A stretch of 45,558 bases of DNA from Salinivenus lutea (GTDB lineage Bacteria > Bacteroidota > Rhodothermia > Rhodothermales > Salinibacteraceae): NCBI GenBank assembly GCA_002894685.1, contig NCRC01000028.1, forward strand, positions 1 through 45,558, in the 5' to 3' direction. Position numbers and translations under genes: made by a program. The notes beneath the pieces were generated by a model. It was not told where the DNA came from, did no database searches, and saw only the letters and a list, made by a program, of their open reading frames with translations. Positions 20,853 through 44,124 of this stretch are shown in pieces (position 1 is the first letter of the stretch; each line of letters starts with the position of its first letter).

Positions 20853-20927
20853 CGGGGCGTGGCGCAGTCCGGTTAGCGCACCTGCTTTGGGAGCAGGAGG
20901 TCGCCGGTTCGAATCCGGCCGCCCCGA
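20853..20927 (+). tRNA. tRNA-Pro(TGG)
   Basis: A full cloverleaf: acceptor CGGGGCG/CGCCCCG, D arm GCGC/GCGC, anticodon stem CCTGC/GCAGG with loop TTTGGGA (anticodon TGG), and T arm GCCGG-TTCGAAT-CCGGC. The discriminator is A. CCA is not encoded. Confidence 0.97.
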
Positions 20928-20965
20928 CTAACCAGGCGCCGCCCCGGCGACGCCTTCGGCTCACC

Positions 20966-21318
20966 GCGCCCGTAGCTCAGTTGGATAGAGCAGCGGACTT
21001 CAAGGACGCCGCGTTTTCGCGAACGCGGCAAAGGAGCGCCTGTGCGGAACGAAACGCGCGGGATGACCGGCGCTGTATCGGGGAATCCCCACGTATGGGG
21101 CGGGCATTGACCCCGACCGGGCAACCCCGAGGAAACCGCCGCGTTGCGGTACTGCAGGCGACGGGATCCGTAGAGGCCATACGCGCCGCACCTGAGACGG
21201 TGAAGAGATGGTCCAGCCTTCCCTGAGTTCGATGATGCGTGTCTGTTGAACTCTCTTGGCGAAAGCCAGCTGAAGGTCGCTAATCCGCAGGTCGCAGGTT
21301 CGAATCCTGCCGGGCGTA
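20966..21318 (+). tRNA. tRNA-Arg(TCT) gene interrupted by a group I intron
   Basis: Two tRNA halves frame a 279-base insert: exon 1 is 20966-21000 and exon 2 is 21280-21318. Joined, they give acceptor GCGCCCG/CGGGCGT (with a G-U first pair), D arm GCTC/GAGC, anticodon stem GCGGA/TCCGC with loop CTTCTAA (anticodon TCT), and T arm GCAGG-TTCGAAT-CCTGC. The break falls inside the anticodon, between T34 and C35. It reads the AGA and AGG codons, rare in this GC-rich genome. CCA is not encoded. Without splicing this tRNA would be useless. Confidence 0.95.
21001..21279 (+). ncRNA. Group I self-splicing intron in tRNA-Arg(TCT)
   Basis: Exon 1 ends with T and the intron ends with G (21279), as group I splicing requires. 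The core helices occur in the correct order. P3 is CGGCGC (21068-21073) with GCGCCG (21183-21188). P4 is TCGGGG (21078-21083) with CCCCGA (21125-21130), preceded by GGGCAA. P7 is GGCCA (21175-21179) with TGGTC (21209-21213). P8 is CACC/GGTG (21189-21202). A P9 region (GAGTTC/GAACTC) and a TGGC-GAAA-GCCA hairpin follow. A guide GAG at 21034-21036 can pair with exon CTT, giving the U-G pair at the splice site. An 8-bp hairpin (21008-21029) sits in the P1 loop. P7 and the AAGAGATGGTCCAG segment resemble the Azoarcus tRNA-Ile intron, with compensatory changes. No homing endonuclease is encoded. Confidence 0.93.
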
Positions 21319-21363
21319 CTCCCTGGCTCGTTCCGCCCAACGCCCCCCCGAGAGAAAAGGAAC

Positions 21364-21406: not shown

Positions 21407-21477
21407 GGTGACGTGGCCGAGTGGTCAGGCAGAGGCCTGCAAAGCCTCCTACGGCGGTTCGAATCCGCCCGTCACCT
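21407..21477 (+). tRNA. tRNA-Cys(GCA)
   Basis: Acceptor GGTGACG/CGTCACC, anticodon stem GAGGC/GCCTC with loop CTGCAAA (anticodon GCA), T arm GGCGG-TTCGAAT-CCGCC, and the U73 discriminator expected for cysteine. CCA is not encoded. A terminator follows 19 bases later. Confidence 0.96.
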
Positions 21478-21496
21478 CTATGTGCCCACCGAATGT

Positions 21497-40831: not shown

Positions 40832-41683
40832 TTAGCTCTGTTTCTCTTCGAGTTCCGGGAGAAGGACCTGCTTTACCCATCCGTAGTCGGGATTGAGATT
40901 GAGGGCCGTTTCGAAGGCCGTCCGGGCCTGCCCGTAGCGCTCCGCCTCCATGTGGGCGACGCCGACCCAGGCGTGCGACTCGGCGTGGCCCCAGCTGGGC
41001 ATCAGCGGGTCGTCGGTTGAGGCCTGCTCCGCGAGGCGCGCGGCCTTCTTGAACTTCTTCAGGGCCTTCTCTTTGTCCCCGCCAAACATGCTGGGCGTGT
41101 AGAAGTCCGACGTTCCACTTATAATCCATACGCGTGGGTTTTCGGGCCCGTGCTTTTTCGCTTTTTCCATGGCTTCGTCGGATTTTGGACCCAGCGACAT
41201 GGCCTTCATCGGGCTCATGCCCATCATTTGCCCGTAGCACCCCGACAGCAGAGCCCAGGCGTCGGCCATCGTTCCGTTGATCTCCGTGGCGCGCTTGAGG
41301 TGGCCGATGGCGTCTTCGATCACGCGCTCGCGCCGGTCTTCGTCGTCTTCGGGGAGCCGGTTCGACATGCGGTAGTCGGCGAGGGCGGCGTAGTAGTGGG
41401 CCAGCGCCTCACGCTCGCCCCCGGTGGCCTGCTTGGCCAGGGCGCGGGCCTGCTTCAAGGAGTCGAGGGATCCCTTGTCGGTGGCCTCCCGAATCCGGGT
41501 TTTGACCTGCTGGAGAAGCGAGTCGGTCGTTGCGGATCCGAGGGCAGAGGAGGTCGACGACGCAGGGGCCATCGGTGTGCTCGACCCGCAGGCCACGAGT
41601 CCGACCAGAAGAAAGCCGCCGAGGAGGAAAGTGAATGTCTTTAGAGGGAGCGTCGGAGTCGGAAGCATGGGGCGTTGGGTCAT
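40832..41683 (-). CDS. TPR-repeat lipoprotein
   Basis: A 283-residue exported lipoprotein: hydrophobic FTFLLGGFLLVG then lipobox LVAC, and a Ser/Thr-rich linker. The mature part is helical with TPR-like units (ALAHYYAALADYRMSNRL, IGHLKRATEINGTMADAWALLSG, AWVGVAHMEAERYGQARTAF, ALNLNPDYGW). It is probably a periplasmic or outer-membrane scaffold with an unknown partner. It lies 24 bases downstream of the amidohydrolase pseudogene on the same strand, suggesting a former operon. Confidence 0.85.
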   Translation of the reverse strand: MTQRPMLPTPTLPLKTFTFLLGGFLLVGLVACGSSTPMAPASSTSSALGSATTDSLLQQVKTRIREATDKGSLDSLKQARALAKQATGGEREALAHYYAALADYRMSNRLPEDDEDRRERVIEDAIGHLKRATEINGTMADAWALLSGCYGQMMGMSPMKAMSLGPKSDEAMEKAKKHGPENPRVWIISGTSDFYTPSMFGGDKEKALKKFKKAARLAEQASTDDPLMPSWGHAESHAWVGVAHMEAERYGQARTAFETALNLNPDYGWVKQVLLPELEEKQS

Positions 41684-42978: not shown

Positions 42979-44124
42979 TTATCCTTGCCCGTCCCCCTCT
43001 GTGTTCGTCAATACCGTGTCGAGAAGGGCAAAGCCCATCTCATCCAACCCTCCCTGGGCGACGTTGCTGAGGACCACGACACCTGCGTCCCGTTCGGGAT
43101 TGAACCCGATAAAGGATTTAAACCCTTCCGTCTCCCCATTATGCCAGAACACAATGTGCCCGTTCTGTTCGCGGACGTGCCATCCGTACGCGATGGGCCC
43201 CGCGCCCTGTCGGTCATACAGCGTTGTGTGGGATCGTTCGATCGCCCGGCGCAGCGGGGACGGAGCGCCGGCCTGTCCCAGCTGGGCCTTGAGGTAGGTC
43301 ACCATATCGCGGGCTGAGGACCGCAGGGCCCCGGCCCCGGCCATACTCTCCCGCCAGTGCCAGTGCGGCGCGACGCTCCCGCCTGAGCGGTGTCCCGTGG
43401 CCAAACGTTGTTTGGGACCTTCTGGCAGTTCGCCCCAGGTATCCTCCATGCCGAGACGGGCTGAGATGCGGTCCCGAATGAGGGCCCGGTACGTCGTGTC
43501 CGACCGTCGGGCAAGCACATGACCAAGTAGGCCGACCCCAAAGTTGGAATACTGGTACGCTGTGCCTGGCGGATGCAAGAGGGTCGTCCCGTCGAGCCCC
43601 CGATGCAGCTCCGCCACCGAGTAGGCCGCATAGGGATCGGTCGACTCGAACTCGGGCTCCTCGCCGAAATTGGGAGGAAGCCGCGGCATGCCGGCGGTGT
43701 GGGTGACCAGCTGCTTCAGGGTAATCGACTCCTCGTTCTGCCCCGGACCGTCGACCGAGTCGGGAAGGGAGGCCGCGACGCGCGCGCCGAGCCGGACGGC
43801 TCCCTGCTCGACGCGATCGGCCAAAGCGAGGCCTGTGAACGTCTTTGTGATGGAGCCAATCTCGAACACCGTGTGCTTGTCGACCGAGTCCCCTTCTGCG
43901 CGGGTGACGCCCCGGGCCAGTGTCTGTTGGTCCGATTCGTCGACGATGCCCACGACGACGCCTGTGCCGCCGGGCTGCTCGTTATGGCGTTCTTGCACCA
44001 GCGAGGCAACCTTCGTTGTGTCGCCCTGCCCAGCGCCTTCGTTTTCTAAAAGATCACACCCCAGGAGCAGCAGCCCAGTAGCGAGAACCAATACTGAACG
44101 GTAACGGGAAGAGGACAAAATCAT
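42979..44124 (-). CDS. Beta-lactamase-family serine hydrolase, lipoprotein
   Basis: A 381-residue exported protein. The N-terminal signal ends in the lipobox LLLLGC (Cys23). The class C beta-lactamase/penicillin-binding fold shows the SxxK motif SITK (Ser91, Lys94), YSN near residue 190 in AYQYSNFGVGLLGHVL, and a C-terminal HNG in VFWHNGETEGFKSF replacing KTG. This set is typical of esterases and D-aminopeptidases rather than antibiotic-resistance enzymes. The substrate is unknown. It lies just upstream of the dead amidohydrolase on the same strand. Confidence 0.9.
   Translation of the reverse strand: MILSSSRYRSVLVLATGLLLLGCDLLENEGAGQGDTTKVASLVQERHNEQPGGTGVVVGIVDESDQQTLARGVTRAEGDSVDKHTVFEIGSITKTFTGLALADRVEQGAVRLGARVAASLPDSVDGPGQNEESITLKQLVTHTAGMPRLPPNFGEEPEFESTDPYAAYSVAELHRGLDGTTLLHPPGTAYQYSNFGVGLLGHVLARRSDTTYRALIRDRISARLGMEDTWGELPEGPKQRLATGHRSGGSVAPHWHWRESMAGAGALRSSARDMVTYLKAQLGQAGAPSPLRRAIERSHTTLYDRQGAGPIAYGWHVREQNGHIVFWHNGETEGFKSFIGFNPERDAGVVVLSNVAQGGLDEMGFALLDTVLTNTEGDGQG

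Follow-up and report, generated by a model that had tools for sequence, protein, structure and literature searches.

We find that the tRNA-Arg(UCU) gene of Salinivenus lutea at positions 20966–21318 of the window (the whole 45,558-nucleotide stretch of DNA analysed) is split in its anticodon by a group I intron, as an earlier note on this DNA had proposed, and that this identification is supported by exact junctions, by covariation, and by homology to introns that Rfam recognises. We hold with high confidence the fuller reading that the intron is self-splicing, that it interrupts the only tRNA-Arg(UCU) gene found, that the product is an AGA-reading tRNA, and that the intron is an endonuclease-free member of a homing family; self-splicing itself is a prediction from sequence, and a very likely one.

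The two halves of the gene lie on the plus strand. The 5' exon (20966–21000; GCGCCCGTAGCTCAGTTGGATAGAGCAGCGGACTT) ends ...GGACUU and runs through U34, and the 3' exon (21280–21318; CTAATCCGC...GGGCGTA) opens CUAAUCC and runs from C35; joined, they give a perfect tRNA-Arg(UCU) with loop CUUCUAA and anticodon UCU. The 279-nt insert (21001–21279, plus strand) lies between anticodon bases 34 and 35, is preceded by T/U, begins with C, and ends with G; the tRNA halves, insert length, preceding T, and terminal G first read from the sequence are confirmed to the base. Two placements of the insert, differing by a one-base slide, are compatible with the exons, and the group I rule (U before the intron, G as its last base) leaves a single placement, 34/35. 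ARAGORN in intron mode, the kind of intron-aware tRNA finder that the earlier note had suggested as a check, calls the split gene and its intron exactly, as tRNA-Arg 20966–21319 (tct) i(36,279); in default mode it calls no gene at this locus. Intron mode also reports two doubtful further intron-bearing tRNAs in the window (41417–41546 and 43085–43287) and is therefore of limited specificity. The neighbours, called by ARAGORN on the same strand, are tRNA-Pro(UGG) upstream (20853–20928) and tRNA-Cys(GCA) downstream (21407–21478), and the Pro-Arg-Cys order recurs in relatives.

The insert has the group I order P3, P4, P6, P7, and P8, with P7 crossing P3, again on the plus strand. The strands of P3 (21068–21073 with 21183–21188), the strands of P7 (21175–21180 with 21208–21213, the latter followed by CAG), and the P8 hairpin (21189–21202, CACC/GGTG) are placed by covariation, and the P7 3' strand by sequence as well. 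P4 (21079–21083 with 21125–21129) is placed by alignment; P5, with an enlarged loop (21087–21121), and the P6/P6a region (21131–21169) have pairs, 21087–21088 with 21120–21121 and 21131–21132 with 21168–21169, that are invariant in alignment A1. The 8-bp P2 hairpin (21039–21062), the P9 hairpin (21225–21253), and a second P9 hairpin with a GAAA tetraloop (21256–21269) are read from the sequence. The canonical layout described in the earlier note, P3, P4, P7, P8, and a P9 region in group I order, is present, with two hairpins in the P9 region; the description was incomplete in that the P1 loop of the insert also bears an additional hairpin of 9 bp (21008–21029), identified by sequence comparison. 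This hairpin otherwise occurs only in the near-identical copy in Salinivenus iranica; long P1 loops in a few further introns have a sequence unlike it. Free folding of the 353-nt precursor is not significant (z = −1.39; equalled by 9 of 100 shuffles), and comparative evidence was therefore used instead.

The internal guide sequence GGAG (21033–21036, plus strand, just 5' of P2) is placed by its pairing with the exons: its GAG can pair with the CUU of exon 1 as P1, giving the expected U·G pair at the splice site, and GGAGC occurs near the intron start in all 92 distinct relatives. The guide lies 5–13 bases into the intron in 87 of these 92 and 32 bases in for the window intron. The AG at 21032–21033 can pair with the CU of exon 2 as P10, which amounts to 2 bp only in the window intron; across the 92 distinct introns P10 potential is 3 bp in 72, 2 bp in 15 (window included), and 1 bp in 5, and the first intron base is C in 69 and T in 23. 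Because the U/G rule itself selects a terminal G, it cannot serve as a check of that G, and the last base was freed instead; in a selection with no demand on it, the last base is G at 105 of 105 loci. According to the mechanism that we propose, the precursor RNA would fold with P3–P8 and P4–P6 around P7, the guide GGAG would pair with the exon 1 end CUU, and guanosine would cleave after U34. With help from P10, the freed U34 would then attack the junction behind the terminal G279, so that the exons would be ligated into a tRNA predicted to read AGA.

In the Salinivenus lutea genome (3.55 Mb in 76 contigs, completeness 99.6%) a tRNA model search gave 48 matches. ARAGORN named 46 of these from 30 loci and 16 fetched stretches; of the remaining two, one is a tRNA-like gene carrying an insertion and the other is truncated. 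Arg anticodons among the named tRNAs are CCG, TCG, GCG, and CCT, with no uninterrupted TCT in the 76-contig assembly. A pattern for an uninterrupted Arg(UCU) arm, run with up to three mismatches on 16 genomes chosen from the family, found a clean arm in 0 of 9 interrupted genomes and in 7 of 7 clean genomes (one copy each); three of the nine are assembled in 2–3 contigs. Pattern matches in G005, G013, and G023 read CTTTTAA, that is, Lys and not Arg(UCU), and were rejected. A second intact tRNA-Arg(TCT), which the earlier note had named as a finding that would count against it, is thus found neither among the 48 tRNA matches nor by the arm pattern in this assembly. We know of no anticodon other than UCU that reads AGA, and the locus offers an example of a ribozyme persisting in the sole AGA tRNA gene detected.

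It is improbable that the intron has decayed and no longer self-splices, the gene being a pseudogene with the true AGA tRNA missing from the assembly, or a protein being needed for splicing. Such decay would fit the unusual P1-loop insertion and the short P10, the 76 contigs of the assembly, and the rarity of AGA codons (0, 1, and 0 in three Pfam-confirmed genes of this genome); moreover, tRNA-Lys(UUU) is likewise not seen among the 48 tRNA matches, so an assembly gap is possible. It is opposed by the perfect exons and intact catalytic helices, by the Salinivenus iranica copy, which is 99% identical over 391 bases and keeps both exons and helices, and by the lack of a clean copy in all nine interrupted genomes, including the three in 2–3 contigs.

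Two minor tRNA-like loci were met in the same genome. The first (C2:94676–94785, minus strand; L072 577–686) has intact acceptor, D, and T arms and an insertion of ~40 nt in the anticodon arm; the 26 remaining genomes of the family yielded no more than two partial matches to it, each of 28 bases. The second (C2:54076–54137, minus strand; L076) is truncated, resembles the 3' portion of a tRNA-Lys(CUU), and may be what is left of an attachment site.

Comparison of the same locus in relatives, also suggested in the earlier note, was made by a DNA search of 27 family genomes, which found the site interrupted in 9 and clean in 13, with 5 without a call; the family introns are 279, 279, 232, 404, 259, 631, 210, 210, and 629 nt long. 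Named kin of the window intron are those of Salinivenus iranica, Longimonas halophila, and a Salinivenus bin. The window intron, as had been stated, has no endonuclease: no gene, ORF, or remnant motif was found inside it. A full PF11645-type gene, as judged by motif, is present in 19 of the 92 distinct introns, a remnant motif in 27, and neither in 46, the window intron included; of the 20 distinct introns longer than 600 nt, 19 contain a full endonuclease ORF, again by motif, and the gene is placed in the P6 region. The relatives' ORFs show the D...QxK motif and match the PF11645 profile, which is matched by the first two example ORFs and by 9 of 9 endonucleases in alignment A2. A profile search of the PDB gave 2ost as the sole match (E 1e-4), and phmmer of one endonuclease against the PDB gave nothing. 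We take 2ost to be I-Ssp6803I, of PD-(D/E)XK type; in Synechocystis I-Ssp6803I sits in the tRNA-fMet intron. By PF11645 and 2ost the relatives' intron ORFs are of this type, whereas the window intron lacks such an ORF. As a separate observation, the endonuclease reading frame terminates in 19 of 19 introns (e.g., L171, L190, L208) at the UAG within the conserved CCGUAGAG; the frame thus ends inside a ribozyme stretch, and gene and catalytic core share sequence.

The homing cycle is a known model, and with clean sites and full, broken, and absent endonuclease genes the class shows all of its stages. The question of spread raised in the earlier note gains a clue: relatives carry a homing-endonuclease gene, and the window intron carries none. 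The window intron is probably inherited with the chromosome and may have lost an endonuclease gene earlier. That it is still mobile, spread by an endonuclease acting in trans, is a reading to which we give very little weight: intact PF11645-type genes do occur at the same site in relatives such as Longimonas halophila and a Salinivenus bin, but the window intron has no gene inside it, and a model built from eight Arg 34/35 introns (R1) finds a single place in the Salinivenus lutea genome, this intron. Given close relatives with clean sites and with intact-looking, broken, and absent homing genes, the homing cycle lends itself to testing in bacteria where the tRNA gene is single.

Covariation was assessed in two sets. 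In the first, eight intron cores with 25 pairs of P3, P4, P5, P6, P7, and P8 compared with 500 shuffles, 99.0% of cells are standard pairs and 7 pairs have two-sided changes, values reached by 0 of 500 shuffles in each case; the count of further pair types is not outstanding (381 of 500 shuffles as high). In the second, 62 distinct rows (from 79) with 1302 cells compared with 300 shuffles, 97.1% of cells pair versus 91.6% in the best shuffle, and 99 cells have two-sided changes versus at most 34 in shuffles; the number of pairs with a two-sided change, 9, equals that of the best shuffle (9). P7 changes as a unit, from GGCCAT/ATGGTC to GACTAT/ATAGTC, its sixth pair often open. The choice of letters in the P7 5', P3 3', and P8 5' strands was fixed or narrowed by the scan signature, and the row-cutting anchors fixed the GTC of the P7 3' strand and most of P4, so that P4 is weak evidence in the 62-row set; the P3 5' and P8 3' strands are free of both constraints. 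The closing pairs of P5 and P6 never vary and are thus uninformative. We conclude that in these alignments P3, P7, and P8 covary, which supports group I identity.

The Rfam group I model RF00028, from which the earlier note had expected a match and whose silence it had listed among the findings that would count against it, gives none in the window at gathering level, in the region at E ≤10, or in the whole genome. (Rfam also gave a YrlA match, at 28.2 bits against a gathering threshold of 69; as it lies across two tRNA genes, we dismissed it as an artefact.) The silence seems to reflect the Rfam model and not the absence of a group I intron, because the RF00028 threshold is reached by 0 of 18 sampled relatives of the window intron and the model also misses 5 of 5 other Arg 34/35 loci. 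R1 matches 38 of 244 genomes of the class and, in phylum-wide sampling, 27 of 394; one match (L143, 24.6 bits) was judged chance. Among 20 loci found by R1, RF00028 reaches threshold in eight, which are Arg(UCU) 36/37, Leu(UAA), Met(CAU), and 23S introns, matches below threshold in four (L095, L125, L140, L086), and gives no match in eight, which include all five Arg 34/35 loci among the 20. A second model, R2, derives from five introns, four of Bacillota and one of Desulfobacterales, none of them from Bacteroidota or Rhodothermota. It picks up the window intron with E 1.9e-20 (21067–21218) and nothing else in the 45.6 kb at E ≤10, a score that is partly built in, since the R2 members were found by a 25-nt signature that comes from the group of the window intron and occurs in the window. 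Free of this bias are the R2 matches to loci with RF00028-recognised introns, 6 of 8, the two misses being 23S introns. The window intron may belong to subgroup IC3. It is scarcely credible that the insert is a protein-spliced archaeal bulge-helix-bulge tRNA intron or a chance ribozyme-like insertion, as its anticodon-loop position, typical of such introns, and the silence of Rfam might suggest, given the preceding U, terminal G, and guide sequence, the P3/P7 covariation that contradicts it, and models that match recognised group I introns.

The window intron, a group I intron, is part of a wide family overlooked by the Rfam model and the default tRNA finder. Because both miss these introns, genomes that have them seem to lack an AGA tRNA; a required tRNA is thus hidden from common annotation here and in many genomes, and a genome reported to be without tRNA-Arg(UCU) may have been misjudged.

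A scan of the genome collection with the 25-nt signature, CCGTAGAGRCYNNACGYRYYRCRCC, found it in 99 stretches from at least five NCBI phyla; among the 80 named stretches listed are Bacillota, Bacteroidota, Rhodothermota, Chloroflexota, Desulfobacterales, Ignavibacteria, and others, with many metagenome bins in the set. By ARAGORN, 96 of the 99 lie within an intron-split tRNA; of the three without a spanning tRNA, L168 and L174 are near a locus end and L227 looks like chance. Since the exon-intron border can slide, ARAGORN gives genes of one kind varying anticodon labels (Ser, Leu, SeC), and we therefore relied on the U/G rule to place the insertions: 85 of the 99 stretches qualify strictly as Arg(UCU) 34/35, and four (L144, L210, L218, L225) fit the 36/37 site. 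In a core tree of 79 of the 92 distinct introns (13 dropped, their anchor not matching), the 34/35 rows bear five NCBI phylum labels and the introns of this class fall into three groups, which suggests several intron lineages in the class; AU tests reject no single-clade arrangement of the class introns (p 0.154, 0.072, 0.293), and an AU test on three endonucleases does not reject a single clade either (p 0.243). Transfer between phyla is no more than plausible; several of the records are metagenome bins. We consider it moderately probable that these introns make up a homing-intron family, as yet without a name and specific to the 34/35 site of tRNA-Arg(UCU), whose members have crossed between at least five bacterial phyla, escape both Rfam and the default tRNA finder, and show every stage of the homing cycle within one class.

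The cyanobacterial tRNA-Leu(UAA) intron lies after U34 and resembles the window intron in this position and in its exon, ...CUU; it differs in its tRNA and in being recognised by Rfam, and the Leu(UAA) gene of Salinivenus lutea is uninterrupted. Leu(UAA) 34/35 introns occur in this class (e.g., G014/G015), are matched by R1, and in L089 and L107 are recognised by RF00028. The Azoarcus tRNA-Ile(CAU) intron is small and inserted after base 36, with GUAGAG, P7, and UAGUCCAG; the window intron is like it in small size, GUAGAG, P7, and UAGUCCAG. A tRNA-Arg-TCT intron, called group I, is described in PMC4853749 for the giant sulfur bacteria Maribeggiatoa (BOGUAY) and Ca. Thiomargarita; it has the same isoacceptor as the window intron in another phylum, and the two are compared here by isoacceptor and group I label. 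The available parts of PMC3984707, PMC6125680, and PMC5733544 name no tRNA-Arg(UCU) intron in this phylum, and the literature, as far as accessible, yielded no description of the Arg(UCU) 34/35 family in Bacillota, Bacteroidota, or Rhodothermota, which is weak evidence of absence.

Several other introns were met in the course of the analysis, and genomes of family f3 have two or three R1 matches each. A second intron type in tRNA-Arg(UCU), at U36^A37 and ~200 nt long, occurs in L093, L094, L102, L105, L106, L109, L110, L113, and L121–L123; eight of these were placed by rule and three by eye, and RF00028 recognises the three tested. We take the 36/37 Arg(UCU) introns of f3 to be an Azoarcus-like form distinct from the 34/35 intron. 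Also in f3 are tRNA-Lys(UUU) group I introns at U34^U35 (~315–394 nt; L126, L128–L142), which adjoin tRNA-Leu(GAG) where the contig reaches; the last intron base rules out an Asn(GUU) reading in just two of them, L135 and L140, and no description of tRNA-Lys(UUU) as an intron host was found in the literature. Group I introns of tRNA-Met(CAU), probably the initiator, lie at U33^C34 in f3 (L095, L098, L099, L101, L103, L111, L112, L116–L120), and tRNA-Leu(UAA) 34/35 introns occur in five f1 genomes (L086, L089, L092, L107, L108), the Leu intron of L096 fitting 33/34. Finally, RF00028 identifies group I introns of 23S rRNA in L104, L125, and L127 (in L125 slightly under threshold), with a downstream ORF that looks LAGLIDADG-like by eye.
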